Virus record (IMG/VR): IMGVR_UViG_3300003324_000515
Span: 1 to 47,374 of that record
Source of the DNA: a virus
DNA length: 47,374 bases
Direction: 5' to 3' (one strand)
Made by a program: the position numbers and the translations under genes. The notes under the pieces are model-generated. The model worked only from the letters and a program-made list of their open reading frames with translations, did no database searches and was not told the DNA's origin. Positions 41,943 to 45,235 of this stretch are shown here, piece by piece (the stretch's first letter is position 1; each line of letters begins with the position of its first letter).

Positions 41943-42025
41943 TGGTGGACCTGCTGGGAACTGCCCCCAGGTTGCTGCCAGAGGTGTGTAGCCTCTGGGA
42001 TCAGCTCTAAGCTAAGTTCAGGCCC
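41943..42025 (-). tRNA. tRNA-like element / pseudo-tRNA
   Basis: A tRNA-shaped sequence with a 7-bp acceptor (GGGCCTG/CAGGTCC, one wobble), discriminator A and encoded CCA. The T arm is CTGGG-GGCAGTT-CCCAG. The D arm is reduced to a 3-nt loop, and the anticodon arm has 7 bp with loop CTACACA (nominal anticodon ACA, C37), which is unlike a decoding tRNA. Probably a tRNA mimic or degenerate tRNA. Confidence 0.5.
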
Positions 42026-42066
42026 AAATAAATAACCCTCGAACGCTCTCGCAAGGCGCTCCAGGG
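42026..42066 (-). terminator. terminator-like hairpin upstream of the tRNA-like element
   Basis: On the minus strand CCCTGGAGCGC folds back on GCGTTCGAGGG and is followed by TTATTTATTT. It lies between the promoter at 42103 and the tRNA-like element. Confidence 0.55.
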
Positions 42067-42102
42067 TTTGTCCAAGAAGAAAAATTAACCTAGTACTCTT
42101 TT

Positions 42103-42130
42103 AATGTATCACGGAATTTATAAAAGTCAA
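42103..42130 (-). promoter_or_regulatory. sigma70-type promoter
   Basis: TTGACT, 16-nt spacer, TACATT on the minus strand, directly after the last true tRNA gene, reading toward the hairpin and the tRNA-like element. Confidence 0.65.
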
Positions 42131-42132
42131 TA

Positions 42133-42209
42133 TGGCTGGGAAGGTAGGATTCAAACCTACGACATCCTGGTTCAAAGCCAGGCGACTCTATCACTGGTCT
42201 ACTTCCCAG
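42133..42209 (-). tRNA. tRNA-Gln(TTG)
   Basis: 7-bp acceptor CTGGGAA/TTCCCAG, anticodon loop CTTTGAA, encoded CCA. The D-loop has GTGAT and the T-loop is TTTGAAT, so the G19-C56 elbow pair appears changed to A19-T56. Confidence 0.85.
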
Positions 42210-42211
42210 TA

Positions 42212-42297
42212 TGGCGGAGGGCGGAGTAGTCGAAACCCAACCCTTTCGGATCGCTTCGCTTAGCGGGCGAGCGCAGCCCCTGGCTGCTTCACCCTCC
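42212..42297 (-). tRNA. tRNA-Ser(GCT)
   Basis: Type II tRNA with a long variable arm. Anticodon loop CCGCTAA, so position 33 is C instead of the nearly invariant T. Acceptor GGAGGGT/GCCCTCC, encoded CCA. Confidence 0.85.
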
Positions 42298-42300
42298 ATC

Positions 42301-42373
42301 TGGCTCGCACGCATGGACTCGCACCATGATTACTTGATTCAGAGTCAAGCGTCCTACTTTAGACGACACGCGA
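42301..42373 (-). tRNA. tRNA-Gln(CTG), remodelled elbow
   Basis: Anticodon loop CTCTGAA, encoded CCA. D-loop TAAAGTAG lacks GG and has AG. T-loop TGCGAGT has G55. Acceptor TCGCGTG/CGTGCGA has two wobble pairs. Confidence 0.8.
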
Positions 42374-42376
42374 TTA

Positions 42377-42450
42377 TGGCTCTTCGAACAGGGCTCGAAC
42401 CTGTGACCTCTGGTTAACAGCCAGGCGTGTTCCCACTACACCATCGAAGA
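42377..42450 (-). tRNA. tRNA-Asn(GTT)
   Basis: Anticodon loop CTGTTAA, canonical T-loop TTCGAGC and D-loop with GG, encoded CCA. Confidence 0.9.
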
Positions 42451-42455
42451 TTATA

Positions 42456-42529
42456 TGGCGCTCGCAACGAGACTCGGACTCGTTACCCATCCGTGACAGG
42501 GATGCGTGATACCCATTCACCATGCGAGC
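42456..42529 (-). tRNA. tRNA-Asp(GTC)
   Basis: Anticodon loop CTGTCAC, D-loop with GGG, acceptor GCTCGCA/TGCGAGC, encoded CCA. Confidence 0.88.
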
Positions 42530-42533
42530 AACT

Positions 42534-42610
42534 TGGGGTGATGTACAAGGTTCGAACTTGCGTCTACTCCTTCACAGGGAGTCGTATGTGGCCACTCTAC
42601 CAACATCACC
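42534..42610 (-). tRNA. tRNA-His(GTG)
   Basis: Anticodon loop CTGTGAA, T-loop TTCGAAC. An extra 5' G pairs with C73, as needed for the histidine synthetase. Encoded CCA. Confidence 0.9.
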
Positions 42611-42613
42611 ATA

Positions 42614-42701
42614 TGGCGGAAGGCTAGCGAGTCGAACGCTAAAGGGGGTTAACCTCGACTATTTTCAAGATAGCTGCCGTCGCCAATCGGCTTGGCCTTC
42701 C
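42614..42701 (-). tRNA. tRNA-Ser(TGA)
   Basis: Type II tRNA with a long variable arm, anticodon loop CTTGAAA, T-loop TTCGACT, encoded CCA. Confidence 0.9.
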
Positions 42702-42703
42702 AT

Positions 42704-42779
42704 TGGTACTCCACGCTAGACTCGAACTAGCACTGTATCGGGTTTAAGCCGACTCCCTCTGCCATTGGGGTAGTGGAGC
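42704..42779 (-). tRNA. tRNA-Leu(TAA), short variable arm
   Basis: Anticodon loop CTTAAAC, T-loop TTCGAGT, discriminator A and encoded CCA. The variable region is only about six bases, unlike normal bacterial leucine tRNAs. First pair G1-T72. Confidence 0.88.
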
Positions 42780-42855
42780 TGGTACTCTCGGTCAGATTCG
42801 AACTGACACTGGGCTGGTTCTAAGCCAGCTGCCTCTGCCGTTGGGCTACGAGAGC
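42780..42855 (-). tRNA. tRNA-Leu(TAG), short variable arm
   Basis: Anticodon loop CTTAGAA, T-loop TTCGAAT, discriminator A, encoded CCA. No long variable arm; G1-T72 wobble. Confidence 0.88.
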
Positions 42856-42856
42856 G

Positions 42857-42932
42857 TGGTACTCGCAGTTGGATTTGAACCAACACTGGATGAGGTTTGA
42901 GCTCATTGCCTCTTCCGTTGGGCTATGCGAGC
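42857..42932 (-). tRNA. tRNA-Leu(CAA), short variable arm
   Basis: Anticodon loop CTCAAAC, T-loop TTCAAAT, discriminator A, encoded CCA. No long variable arm; G1-T72 wobble. Confidence 0.88.
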
Positions 42933-43007
42933 TGGACGCACAGATCGGATTTGCACCGATGACTTTCCGCTTTGCAGGCGGTCGCGTTTCTACTCCGCCA
43001 CTGTGCG
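42933..43007 (-). tRNA. tRNA-Cys(GCA), remodelled elbow
   Basis: Anticodon loop CTGCAAA. D-loop GAGTAGAAA has AG in place of GG; T-loop TGCAAAT has G55. Encoded CCA. Confidence 0.85.
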
Positions 43008-43010
43008 ATA

Positions 43011-43097
43011 TGGTTACACGCCTGGGTAACGCTCCCAGCCTGCCCTATGGACGACAGTTTTACAGACTGCCCCTCGTCTTTAGAGGTATAGCGTGCA
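43011..43097 (-). tRNA. tRNA-Tyr(GTA), remodelled elbow
   Basis: Type II with a long variable arm, anticodon loop CTGTAAA. D-loop TAAAGAC (AG) and T-loop AGCGTTA (G55). Acceptor TGCACGC/GCGTGTA, encoded CCA. Confidence 0.85.
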
Positions 43098-43100
43098 TTA

Positions 43101-43174
43101 TGGCTTCCACTCGCGGTACTGCCCCGCGCCACATCGGGCTTCAACCGATTGCTCTACTTCTGAGCTAAGTGGAA
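43101..43174 (-). tRNA. tRNA-Phe(GAA), remodelled elbow
   Basis: Anticodon loop TTGAAGC. T-loop GGCAGTA with a 5-bp stem CGCGG/CCGCG. D-loop has CAGAAGTAGA, where GG is replaced by AG. Encoded CCA. Confidence 0.88.
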
Positions 43175-43185
43175 TTAATTGTTAA

Positions 43186-43216
43186 AGAAAAAACCGCCTT
43201 CTTGCGTTGGCGGTTA
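43186..43216 (-). terminator. intrinsic terminator upstream of the second tRNA block
   Basis: ACCGCC/GGCGGT stem followed by TTTTTTC on the minus strand, 12 nt before tRNA-Phe. Like the one at 44641 it precedes a tRNA block. Confidence 0.8.
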
Positions 43217-43243
43217 TCTTAACTTTTGGGAGGTAGACTATGA

Positions 43244-43318
43244 TTACACGCCAACAACAATACTGTCGAAATTATAATCCGACTGGTAATGACTGAGTTG
43301 TTGACACAATGCTTTCAT
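43244..43318 (-). CDS. possible 24-residue leader peptide
   Basis: A short frame (MKALCQQLSHYQSDYNFDSI and four more) with GAGGAAG just upstream, ending about 28 nt before the terminator at 43186. An AT-rich extended -10-like TATGCTAATAT lies upstream. Either a leader peptide controlling read-through into the tRNAs or a chance frame. Confidence 0.35.
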   Translation of the reverse strand: MKALCQQLSHYQSDYNFDSIVVGV

Positions 43319-43349
43319 AGCTTCCTCATATTAGCATACTTGTCAAATT

Positions 43350-43424
43350 TGGTCATCCCACAGGGTTTCGATCCCTGTTCTCCGCGATGAAAGCGCAGTA
43401 TCCTAGCCAGTAGACGATGGGACG
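43350..43424 (-). tRNA. tRNA-Glu(TTC)
   Basis: Anticodon loop CTTTCAT, T-loop ATCGAAA, D-loop with GG, acceptor CGTCCCA/TGGGATG, encoded CCA. Confidence 0.85.
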
Positions 43425-43430
43425 ACGGAC

Positions 43431-43469
43431 GAGTGGCGCGACCACTCCCGCACCCAGGCGCGACCTGGG
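43431..43469. repeat. twin hairpins with identical CGCGA loops
   Basis: GAGTGG-CGCGA-CCACTC and CCCAGG-CGCGA-CCTGGG, separated by five bases, lie between tRNA-Glu(TTC) and tRNA-Lys(CTT). They could be RNA processing or stability elements. Confidence 0.5.
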
Positions 43470-43481
43470 CTCTTTATAAAT

Positions 43482-43556
43482 TGGAGGGCTTAGAGAGTTT
43501 CGAAATCTCGACAACCTGTTTAAGAGACAGGTGCTCTTCCTCTGAGCTATAAGCCC
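43482..43556 (-). tRNA. tRNA-Lys(CTT)
   Basis: Anticodon loop CTCTTAA, D-loop with GG, T-loop TTCGAAA with one mismatched T-stem pair, encoded CCA. Confidence 0.88.
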
Positions 43557-43558
43557 AC

Positions 43559-43633
43559 TGGTACGCCGTAGGAGATTTGAACTCCTGACTCCACCTTGAG
43601 AAAGTGGTGACTTGCCCGCTTGTCGAACGGCGC
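43559..43633 (-). tRNA. tRNA-Glu(CTC)
   Basis: Anticodon loop TTCTCAA, T-loop TTCAAAT, D-loop GCGGG, G1-T72 wobble, discriminator A, encoded CCA. Confidence 0.8.
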
Positions 43634-43638
43634 TTAGT

Positions 43639-43714
43639 TGGTGGAGACACTCGGTACTGCCCCGAGTCTTACTGCTTGCAAAGCAATCGTGCTGGCTGTT
43701 GACACTATGCCCCC
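43639..43714 (-). tRNA. tRNA-Ala(TGC), remodelled elbow
   Basis: Anticodon loop TTTGCAA, T-loop GGCAGTA with stem CTCGG/CCGAG, D-loop CAACAGCCA (AG for GG), encoded CCA. Acceptor GGGGGCA/TGTCTCC has two wobbles. Confidence 0.85.
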
Positions 43715-43789
43715 TGGTACTTCCTCTCCGACTCGAACGGAGATTCTGGGCTTAGAACACCCCTGTTCTTTCCATTGAACTAAGGAAGC
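43715..43789 (-). tRNA. tRNA-Arg(TCT)
   Basis: Anticodon loop GTTCTAA, T-loop TTCGAGT, D-loop with GG, G1-T72 wobble, discriminator A, encoded CCA. Confidence 0.82.
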
Positions 43790-43794
43790 GTATA

Positions 43795-43869
43795 TGGTGC
43801 GCGTACTCGGATTCGAACCGAGAAATCCTACTTGGAAGGAAGGCGGTTTGGCCATTAGCCTACACGCGC
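43795..43869 (-). tRNA. tRNA-Gly(TCC)
   Basis: Anticodon loop CTTCCAA with one mismatch in the anticodon stem, T-loop TTCGAAT, D-loop with GG, encoded CCA. Confidence 0.85.
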
Positions 43870-43872
43870 ATT

Positions 43873-43949
43873 TGGAGGTCCGTGTCGGTGCTGCCCCGAC
43901 TACTCCTCTTTACAAGAGAGGGATTATAGCTAGCGTTAACTAACAGACC
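43873..43949 (-). tRNA. tRNA-Thr(TGT), remodelled elbow
   Basis: Anticodon loop CTTGTAA, T-loop GGCAGCA, D-loop without GG (AACGCT, nominal C18), discriminator T, encoded CCA. Confidence 0.82.
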
Positions 43950-44027
43950 TGGTCGCCCTTCAAGGATTTGAACCTTGAACATCCTCTTTGTAGGAGAGGC
44001 GCTCTGGCCAGATTGAGCTAAAGGGCG
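43950..44027 (-). tRNA. tRNA-Val(TAC)
   Basis: Anticodon loop CCTACAA, so position 33 is C. T-loop TTCAAAT, D-loop with GG, acceptor CGCCCTT/AAGGGCG, encoded CCA. Confidence 0.85.
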
Positions 44028-44102
44028 TGGTAGCGGATTCGGGTACTGCCCCCGATTGAAAGGCGTATGAAACCTTCAAGATGTCTTCACCTACCATCCG
44101 CA
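44028..44102 (-). tRNA. tRNA-Met(CAT), remodelled elbow
   Basis: Anticodon loop TTCATAC, T-loop GGCAGTA, D-loop GAAGA (AG), T1-T72 mismatch, encoded CCA. The anticodon stem lacks the three G-C pairs of an initiator, so it is an elongator or possibly a lysidine-type Ile tRNA. Confidence 0.82.
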
Positions 44103-44105
44103 GCA

Positions 44106-44184
44106 TGGTACTCGCAGAGAGATTCGAACTCCCGACAACCCAGGTTCGAAGCCTGGTGCTCTAAATCCGCTGAGCTATGCGAGC
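44106..44184 (-). tRNA. tRNA-Arg(TCG)
   Basis: Anticodon loop CTTCGAA, T-loop TTCGAAT, D-loop CGG, G1-T72 wobble, discriminator A, encoded CCA. Confidence 0.88.
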
Positions 44185-44237
44185 ATGTGTGCGTTCAGCA
44201 TGACAGTTGGCGCAGACGACCTCACATTTTTCTTTCT
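44180..44237 (-). pseudogene. HNH endonuclease C-terminal remnant between tRNA genes
   Basis: The minus-strand frame reads KCEVVCANCHAERTHAR, the typical zinc-binding C-terminal end of HNH endonucleases, between tRNA-Ile(TAT) and tRNA-Arg(TCG). Only the tail remains and it runs into the tRNA-Arg sequence. It suggests a deletion or insertion event mediated by an HNH element. Confidence 0.55.
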
Positions 44238-44311
44238 TGGTGGGCGTACCACGAGTCGCACGCGGATCACGAGGATATAAGCCCCGCGCTCTTCTGTTGA
44301 GCTATACGCCG
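44238..44311 (-). tRNA. tRNA-Ile(TAT), remodelled elbow
   Basis: Anticodon loop CTTATAT. D-loop AACAGAA has AG in place of GG and T-loop TGCGACT has G55. C1-C72 mismatch; encoded CCA. Confidence 0.82.
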
Positions 44312-44314
44312 TTA

Positions 44315-44388
44315 TGGTAGGCGATACAGGTACTGCCCCTGTGTCACTGCAGTATCAGTGCAGAGTTCTACTTTTGAACTAATCGCCA
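44315..44388 (-). tRNA. tRNA-Ile(GAT), remodelled elbow
   Basis: Anticodon loop CTGATAC, T-loop GGCAGTA with ACAGG/CCTGT stem, D-loop AAAAGTA (AG), T1-T72 mismatch, encoded CCA. Confidence 0.85.
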
Positions 44389-44391
44389 ATA

Positions 44392-44466
44392 TGGAGGGCC
44401 TAGAGGATTCCGACACCTCGACCGATCGCTTAAAAGGCGACTGCTCTGCCTCTGAGCTACAGGCCC
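44392..44466 (-). tRNA. tRNA-Lys(TTT)
   Basis: Anticodon loop CTTTTAA, D-loop GAGGCA with GG, T-loop GTCGGAA (T55 kept, G54 and G58), encoded CCA. Confidence 0.85.
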
Positions 44467-44469
44467 GTA

Positions 44470-44546
44470 TGGTCAGGGCAGCTGGATTTGAACCAGCGAC
44501 CTCCTAGTTCCAAGCTAGGCACGCTGCCTGACTGCGCTATACCCTG
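44470..44546 (-). tRNA. tRNA-Pro(TGG)
   Basis: Anticodon loop CTTGGAA, T-loop TTCAAAT, D-loop with GG, acceptor CAGGGTA/TGCCCTG, encoded CCA. Confidence 0.88.
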
Positions 44547-44549
44547 ATA

Positions 44550-44623
44550 TGGCAGGAGATGAAGGTGCTGCCCCCTCTCACGCGGGTTTGGAATCCGCTG
44601 CTCTGCTGTTGAGCTAATCTCCT
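44550..44623 (-). tRNA. tRNA-Trp(CCA), remodelled elbow
   Basis: First gene of the array. Anticodon loop TTCCAAA, T-loop GGCAGCA, D-loop AACAGCA (AG), acceptor AGGAGAT/ATCTCCT, encoded CCA. Confidence 0.87.
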
Positions 44624-44764: not shown

Positions 44765-45235
44765 TTAGTATGCACTTCCCGCTTCGTTTGTCAAGGTTTT
44801 TGGCTCTACTATCTGTAAAGCGTCTTCATTAGGTTCGATTATTTGCTGGAGCAGGCGAGTTCGTCGGCCTGTCTTCCAGCGCCATTCATTCACATTTTCG
44901 TTATGGGCTTTACGGCAGGACTCGCATCGGCATTTGTAGTACTCGTAGCCATTGTTCGTGCCATGCACCAGGCCCGCGTCGCGCTCTTTCATTGTTTTTT
45001 CGATGTGGCAGCTTTGGCAAAGTACCTGGCATTTTGCAGTTTCGGCAATAATGCGAGCCCAGCTCCACGACCAAATCCGATGGTCTACTTTTTGGGTAGG
45101 ATCTATGTGGTCGAGCTCTAAATGCTCTTTCGTCCCACAATTAGCGCAGACTTTATTTCGAAACCATAGTCTCCTGCGTTCCGCAACCCAGTTCCTTTGA
45201 TACGCGTTCTGTTCCGCTCTGTTCTTGTACGGCAT
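44765..45235 (-). CDS. HNH endonuclease
   Basis: A 156-residue protein with CANCG at about residues 30-34, LELDHIDP (catalytic His in DHI), then CQVLCQSCHIEKT. This is a zinc-bound HNH nuclease as in free-standing homing endonucleases. Such genes insert in phage genomes near tRNAs and promote recombination. The 3' end overlaps the tRNA promoter. Two more HNH genes lie upstream and an HNH tail remnant is within the array. Confidence 0.85.
   Translation of the reverse strand: MPYKNRAEQNAYQRNWVAERRRLWFRNKVCANCGTKEHLELDHIDPTQKVDHRIWSWSWARIIAETAKCQVLCQSCHIEKTMKERDAGLVHGTNNGYEYYKCRCESCRKAHNENVNEWRWKTGRRTRLLQQIIEPNEDALQIVEPKTLTNEAGSAY
44767..44794 (-). promoter_or_regulatory. sigma70-type promoter for the tRNA array
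   Basis: TTGACA, 16-nt spacer containing ACGAAGCGGG, CATACT on the minus strand, inside the end of the HNH gene. It is the first promoter upstream of the 28 tRNA genes. Confidence 0.75.

Follow-up and report, generated by a model that had tools for sequence, protein, structure and literature searches.

In the textbook elbow of transfer RNA (tRNA), residue 18 of the D-loop slots between residues 57 and 58 of the T-loop and touches residue 55, residue 19 pairs with residue 56, and residue 54 pairs with residue 58 (PMC4810234, PMC7912444). The canonical elongator (RF00005) fills these positions with G18-Psi55 (Psi, pseudouridine), G19-C56 and T54-A58. Both papers describe pseudouridine-55 as universally conserved and regard the G18-Psi55 contact as an invariable element of the elbow. 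No mention of A18 or G55 was found in reviews that deal with the elbow, with modification of the T-loop or with unusual tRNAs, and a literature search of open-access papers found no report of an A18/G55 elbow. Eukaryotic tRNA-Ala(AGC) and initiator tRNA combine A54-A58 with a purine at position 60 and keep G18 and U55, and R15-A48 with A54-A58 pairs is said not to be seen in bacteria (PMC7566577). Mitochondrial type II tRNAs have no conserved interaction between the D- and T-loops (PMC7609411). The 47,374-nt phage record IMGVR_UViG_3300003324_000515 of IMG/VR, analyzed here in full (the window), carries terminase, portal, capsid, exonuclease and endolysin genes, and its minus strand between 41.9 and 44.6 kb (positions 41943–44623) is a tRNA array. 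A subset of these tRNAs combines A18 with G55 in place of G18 with U55. The new part is this natural variant of the elbow; tRNA structure itself is known, and this is not a new kind of molecule.

ARAGORN located 20 tRNA genes in the window, one of which is a spurious plus-strand call. A cloverleaf finder of our own, which scores the stems, U8, A14, A21, U33 and CCA and is blind to nucleotides 15–20 and 54–60, located 26 tRNA genes on the minus strand; by comparison, ARAGORN lacks eight real genes of the array. The gene for tRNA-Val(TAC) (43950–44027) is found by ARAGORN and is absent from the elbow-blind list because it has C33 (loop CCTACAA), where U33 is near-universal, and is therefore excluded by the finder. 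With tRNA-Val and an irregular gene at 41943–42025, the array comprises about 28 tRNA genes, which cover all 20 amino acids. These genes form the RF00005 cloverleaf, with four stems, U33, a 7-nt T-loop and CCA or a discriminator, the exceptions being C33 in tRNA-Val and irregular D-arms in tRNA-Met and the 41943 gene. They share U8, A14, A21, G53-C61 and the positions of the facing elbow pairs with the canonical elongator. What ARAGORN misses is the class with GGCRGYA T-loops; the tRNA sets reported for phages may consequently be incomplete, as may the tRNA counts used in checking genomes.

Ten regular tRNAs of the array contain G55: Trp, Ile(GAT), Ile(TAT), Met, Thr, Ala, Phe, Tyr, Cys and Gln(CTG). 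They are the same ten that an initial annotation of the window had listed, tRNA-Tyr being recovered after correction of its register; the irregular 41943 gene is an eleventh (T-loop GGCAGTT). All nine G55 tRNAs with a clear D-loop register carry A18-G19 (D-loops AACAGCA, AAAAGTA, AACAGAA, ACGCTAGCTA, CAACAGCCA, AGAAGTA, TAAAGAC, AGTAGAA and AAAGTA), in agreement with the AG reported for nine of the ten, and tRNA-Met, whose D-arm is ambiguous (D-loop TGAAGACA), likely has A18 as well. G18 is present in every tRNA of the array with T55 or C55, and the association between positions 18 and 55 within the window has a Fisher p of ~1e-7 when the genes are treated as unrelated by descent. Two further claims of the annotation agree with this analysis: C56 (here with the 19-56 pair) is retained in the G55 set, and the T55 tRNAs keep GG in the D-loop except for Gln(TTG), which combines G18-A19 with T55-T56. 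That a shift of the loops restores G18 and T55 has hardly any probability. Longer D-loops are indeed ambiguous, but 7-nt D-loops leave little room for a shift and the CCA end fixes the register of the T-arm, so that no shift restores the canonical bases; these two registers agree, without mixed cases, and an alignment artefact is refuted for 7-nt D-loops. The A18-G55 pattern of the array is thus confirmed as real.

The pattern is also present in many phages and a few bacteria, and neither a restoring loop shift nor its absence from other genomes, the outcomes by which the initial annotation would have been refuted, was observed. An A18 D-arm with GGGGCAGYACC matched 29 stretches in viral contigs, and 26 matches were obtained in 85,000 prokaryote genomes. 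In the collection-wide scans, the crossed combination of G18 with GGCAG gave 2 matches versus 29 for A18 with GGCAG, the TGC T-loop gave at least 120 matches with A18 versus 14 with G18, and A18 with an ordinary TTC loop gave 16 matches, mostly oddly spaced. For the main covariation table the fetched loci were scanned blind, genes matching any seed pattern were dropped, and only 7-nt D-loops were used, because a looser motif count over all loop lengths, discarded for this reason, had scored 42 T55 tRNAs as "AG", attributed to A16-G18-G19-type loops read as AGG. The non-seed genes comprise 100 tRNAs with A18-G55, 111 with G18-T55, 11 with G18-C55 and none with A18-T55; the sole G18-G55 case is a misregistered tRNA-Leu. 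The first loci had been chosen for carrying one such tRNA, and the scan was therefore repeated with a seed neutral at positions 18 and 55. This class-neutral viral sample contains 12 tRNAs with A18-G55, 204 with G18-T55/C55 and no mixed case. G55 occurs in 25 of its 538 tRNAs (~5%), and one or more G55 tRNAs are carried by 13 of the 107 loci that bear tRNAs.

Fisher values overstate significance under shared descent; independent pairs were thus counted on trees of the tRNA body without its loops. In the seven isoacceptor families that were read, ~30 of 31 supported independent pairs changed at positions 18 and 55 together and none changed oppositely (p 0.008 for the Thr family alone). Both classes are found in all 20 amino acid families. 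Phage contig L168 contains a pair of adjacent Ile(TAT) genes, one of each class, whose sequences are 90% alike once the loops are left out; this pair is apparently a recent class switch. The swap is shown to be of repeated origin. Since the paired swap recurs in many phages and a few bacteria, a contact supposed to be universal is exchangeable as a unit. Some arrays consist almost wholly of G55 tRNAs (19 of 21 in L031 and 16 of 21 in L015). In Erythrobacter phage vB_EliS-L02 the tRNA-Val combines A18-G55 with GGCAGCA and the tRNA-Cys combines A18-G55 with U19-A56; neither is annotated in its record. No G55 was found by the elbow-blind finder in the phages of Corynebacterium, Mycobacterium, Serratia, Rhodobacter and Caulobacter or in the Arthrobacter-type plasmid that were obtained from megablast-type matches to known phage Trp tRNAs and plasmid/phage arrays.

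The other elbow pairs vary as sets as well. In the blind scan of the fetched loci, positions 54 and 58 are T-A in 604 tRNAs, G-G in 46, A-T in 19 and A-A in 16, with almost nothing else, and A60 accompanies G54-G58 in 72 of 81 tRNAs. Pairing of two purines at 54-58, with another purine at position 60, is a feature shared with the eukaryotic initiator tRNA and tRNA-Ala(AGC); in the present tRNAs, by contrast, the predominant pair is G54-G58, and it accompanies A18-G55. Of the pairs stated in PMC7566577 to be missing from bacteria (R15-A48 with A54-A58), A54-A58 occurs in Glu(TTC) of this phage. This tRNA and Lys(TTT), with G54-G58, keep G18-T55; these coupled 54-58 changes had been missed by the initial annotation. 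G54-G58 was reportedly accepted in functional suppressor tRNAs selected by the Steinberg laboratory after randomization of the D- and T-loops; those are laboratory products, whereas the present tRNAs are natural and their 18-55 pair is exchanged too. Thirty-seven tRNAs lack C56, and 32 of them carry the predicted complement at position 19 beside the class-appropriate base at 18, compared with a shuffle expectation of 14 on average and 25 at maximum; at least three of the remaining five are G-U wobbles on our reading. The 19-56 pair occurs as all four Watson–Crick pairs. In the survey loci (L001 to L399), an A-T 19-56 pair (D-loop GA, T-loop TTT) is present in several phage and plasmid Arg tRNAs with T55, among them one in the Pseudarthrobacter plasmid array (L393:5665-5737).

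The covariation at 18-55, 19-56 and 54-58 points to maintained contacts between the D- and T-loops, unlike the situation in mitochondrial type II tRNAs. In the proposed elbow, residue 18 would still insert into the T-loop facing residue 55, residue 19 would still pair with 56 and residue 54 with 58, with the bases exchanged as sets: G18-U55 for A18-G55, often joined by U54-A58 for G54-G58 plus A60, and sometimes G19-C56 for another Watson–Crick pair. Because all three pairs covary, other bases would serve in the same intercalated architecture. The tRNAs probably retain their L-shape, together with the flat surface at 19-56 that is read by RNase P and the ribosomal L1 stalk, and they are presumably charged and used. 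Recognition of the elbow by T-boxes, RNase P and the L1 stalk is mostly a matter of stacking against this flat surface (PMC4810234), so a different base pair there should still be read. The A18-G55 tRNAs are probably functional, with an alternative elbow whose base changes compensate one another; an alternative tertiary elbow had been suggested by the initial annotation from the correlated change. That they are degenerate pseudo-tRNAs or decoys outside translation is very improbable: the eight genes missed by ARAGORN and the irregular 41943 gene fit such a view, but compensation maintains the stems, CCA, U33 and every elbow pair, no amino acid is left uncovered, and sole-copy chromosomal cases exist.

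The chromosomal cases come from Patescibacteria. Contigs of Levybacteria and Amesbacteria contain similar tRNA-His genes (GGCAGCA with AACAG) near other chromosomal tRNAs. In one incomplete Levybacteria genome (G001) the only His and only Tyr tRNAs found, with 40 of 41 tRNA matches read, are A18-G55, and its His gene is missed by ARAGORN; this is strong, though not conclusive, evidence that they serve in translation. Among 287 sampled Patescibacteria, a verified A18-G55 tRNA-Tyr is present in six and an A18-G55 tRNA-His in three. Five of 11 tRNA-Tyr pattern matches were dropped, as the A18-G55 cloverleaf was not recovered.

TruB modifies U55 and TrmH modifies G18, and U54 and A58 are also enzyme targets. 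The A18-G55 tRNAs lack the TruB and TrmH target bases, and the GGCRGYA class lacks U54 and A58 as well; pseudouridine-55 and Gm18 would therefore be absent, together with T54 and m1A58 in the GGCRGYA class. With G at position 55, these tRNAs depart from the TruB substrate consensus 53-GUUYRANYC-61 (PMC7912444), in which U55 is needed by TruB; enzymes that depend on particular bases will not act on this elbow. Since the target bases are gone, the elbow would have to be stable in the absence of its normal modifications. Among Patescibacteria, 9 of 15 carriers of the class lack TruB, versus 94 of 279 non-carriers (60% vs 34%, Fisher p 0.05), a comparison in which kinship and genome completeness are confounders; as the cause of the swap, TruB loss was set aside as suggestive only. 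TruB is present in six of the 15 carriers, so its loss is not required. The evidence of use is limited by the incompleteness of metagenome-assembled genomes, with one of the 41 G001 matches uninspected, so that "sole copy" means as found.

Outside these Patescibacteria the class is rare in cells: with the same neutral pattern, it occurs in 8 of 99 viral versus 0 of 154 cellular tRNAs (p 5e-4), the cellular tRNAs being from Pseudomonadota and Patescibacteria only and leaving out two ascertained genomes. Some phage tRNAs evade host tRNA nucleases through changes in the anticodon loop. The present array resembles these in its altered loops and differs in that the elbow is altered, not the anticodon loop, and no nuclease is known for it. 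That the altered elbow shields the tRNAs of phages from a nuclease or toxin of the host that reads the D/T-loop sequence is quite unlikely. The viral enrichment is consistent with it, as are the several elbow positions and all isoacceptors affected, but no such nuclease is identified, bacteria also use A18-G55 tRNAs, and arrays are usually mixed, as in this phage, which would leave the T55 members exposed. The initial annotation's proposal that the swap serves to avoid host tRNA enzymes or nucleases was not sustained, only the loss of target bases being seen.

It is possible, though somewhat unlikely, that phage tRNAs, when produced rapidly or in hosts with little TruB, TrmA or TrmH, use an elbow that is stable unmodified. 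The GGCRGYA tRNAs with A18 lack all four classical elbow target bases and TruB absence is higher among Patescibacteria carriers, but that association is borderline, canonical tRNAs coexist in the same genomes, and six of the 15 carriers retain TruB. Near-neutral drift between two elbows of equal quality, which population size and mutation would make easier to see in viruses, is quite possible, if less than probable. Both classes in every isoacceptor family and frequent switching argue for it; the absence of mixed states, which implies that each class switch crosses a poor intermediate, argues against it, and drift alone leaves the near-absence in the cellular sample unexplained. Selection on phage elbows to change sequence while keeping shape, on the premise that host modification enzymes or elbow-reading nucleases recognize the canonical bases, is an unlikely explanation; A18-G55, G54-G58 and swapped 19-56 pairs would then be escape states readable by a shape-stacking ribosome and RNase P, with the same small likelihood. 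The favoured, if weakly supported, explanation of the phage frequency is that such an elbow releases its tRNA from those host factors that modify or read the elbow. The repeatedly evolved compensated elbow provides ready-made double and quadruple mutants for probing elbow contacts and modifications.

Table 1 tRNA genes of the array, with elbow features and detection.
Gene	Position	Strand	Features	Detection
tRNA-Trp(CCA)	44550..44623	-	A18-G55, T-loop GGCAGCA (G54-G58)	elbow-blind finder; RF00005 36.5 bits
tRNA-Lys(TTT)	44392..44466	-	G18-T55 yet G54-G58 (GTCGGAA)	elbow-blind finder
tRNA-Ile(GAT)	44315..44388	-	A18-G55, GGCAGTA, T1.T72 mismatch	elbow-blind finder; RF00005 47.5 bits
tRNA-Ile(TAT)	44238..44311	-	A18-G55, TGCGACT, C1.C72 mismatch	ARAGORN and elbow-blind finder
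tRNA-Met(CAT)	44028..44102	-	G55 (GGCAGTA), T1.T72 mismatch, likely A18 (ambiguous register of the D-arm)	
tRNA-Thr(TGT)	43873..43949	-	G55 (GGCAGCA), D-loop ACGCTAGCTA	elbow-blind finder
tRNA-Ala(TGC)	43639..43714	-	A18-G55, GGCAGTA	elbow-blind finder; RF00005 33.1 bits
tRNA-Glu(TTC)	43350..43424	-	G18-T55 with A54-A58 and A60 (ATCGAAA)	ARAGORN and elbow-blind finder
tRNA-Phe(GAA)	43101..43174	-	A18-G55, GGCAGTA	elbow-blind finder
tRNA-Tyr(GTA)	43011..43097	-	long variable arm, A18-G55, AGCGTTA (A54-T58), corrected register CTGGG-AGCGTTA-CCCAG	
tRNA-Cys(GCA)	42933..43007	-	A18-G55, TGCAAAT	ARAGORN and elbow-blind finder
tRNA-Gln(CTG)	42301..42373	-	A18-G55, TGCGAGT, 6-nt D-loop	ARAGORN and elbow-blind finder
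tRNA-Gln(TTG)	42133..42208	-	G18-T55, A19-T56 replaces G19-C56	ARAGORN and elbow-blind finder
Odd tRNA-like gene	41943..42025	-	7-bp acceptor, 7-bp anticodon stem, loop CTACACA, T-loop GGCAGTT (G55)	
Pro, Arg (two), Val, Gly, Glu(CTC), Lys(CTT), Leu (three), Ser, His, Asp, Asn	42377..44546	-	all G18 with T55 or C55	

The anticodon of the 41943 gene is nominally ACA, or CTA on a wider reading of the loop; the gene could be an odd Cys-anticodon tRNA, an amber-reading tRNA or degenerate. The 1-72 mismatches of both Ile tRNAs and tRNA-Met are of a kind otherwise typical of bacterial initiator tRNA. An HNH endonuclease gene (44765–45235) adjoins the array. Eight records of capsid-protein relatives (18 to 51 kb, four of at least 47 kb) have one tRNA match among them all, and the array looks to have been gained or lost as a block. 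The terminase search for relatives recovered only a fragment of the same phage. A lysozyme-like phage protein has a 33% match in 1 of 41 Saccharimonadia-class genomes, which does not settle the host. Odd tRNAs of Streptomyces and Embleya have near-identical bodies (CGACGTG...CACGTCG or CGGCGTG...CATGCCG, with G73), G55 T-loops and Pro, Tyr or Arg anticodons (L056:7678-7824, L033:6122-6193, L397:2996-3067), and thus form what appears to be a tRNA-like family with changing anticodons.

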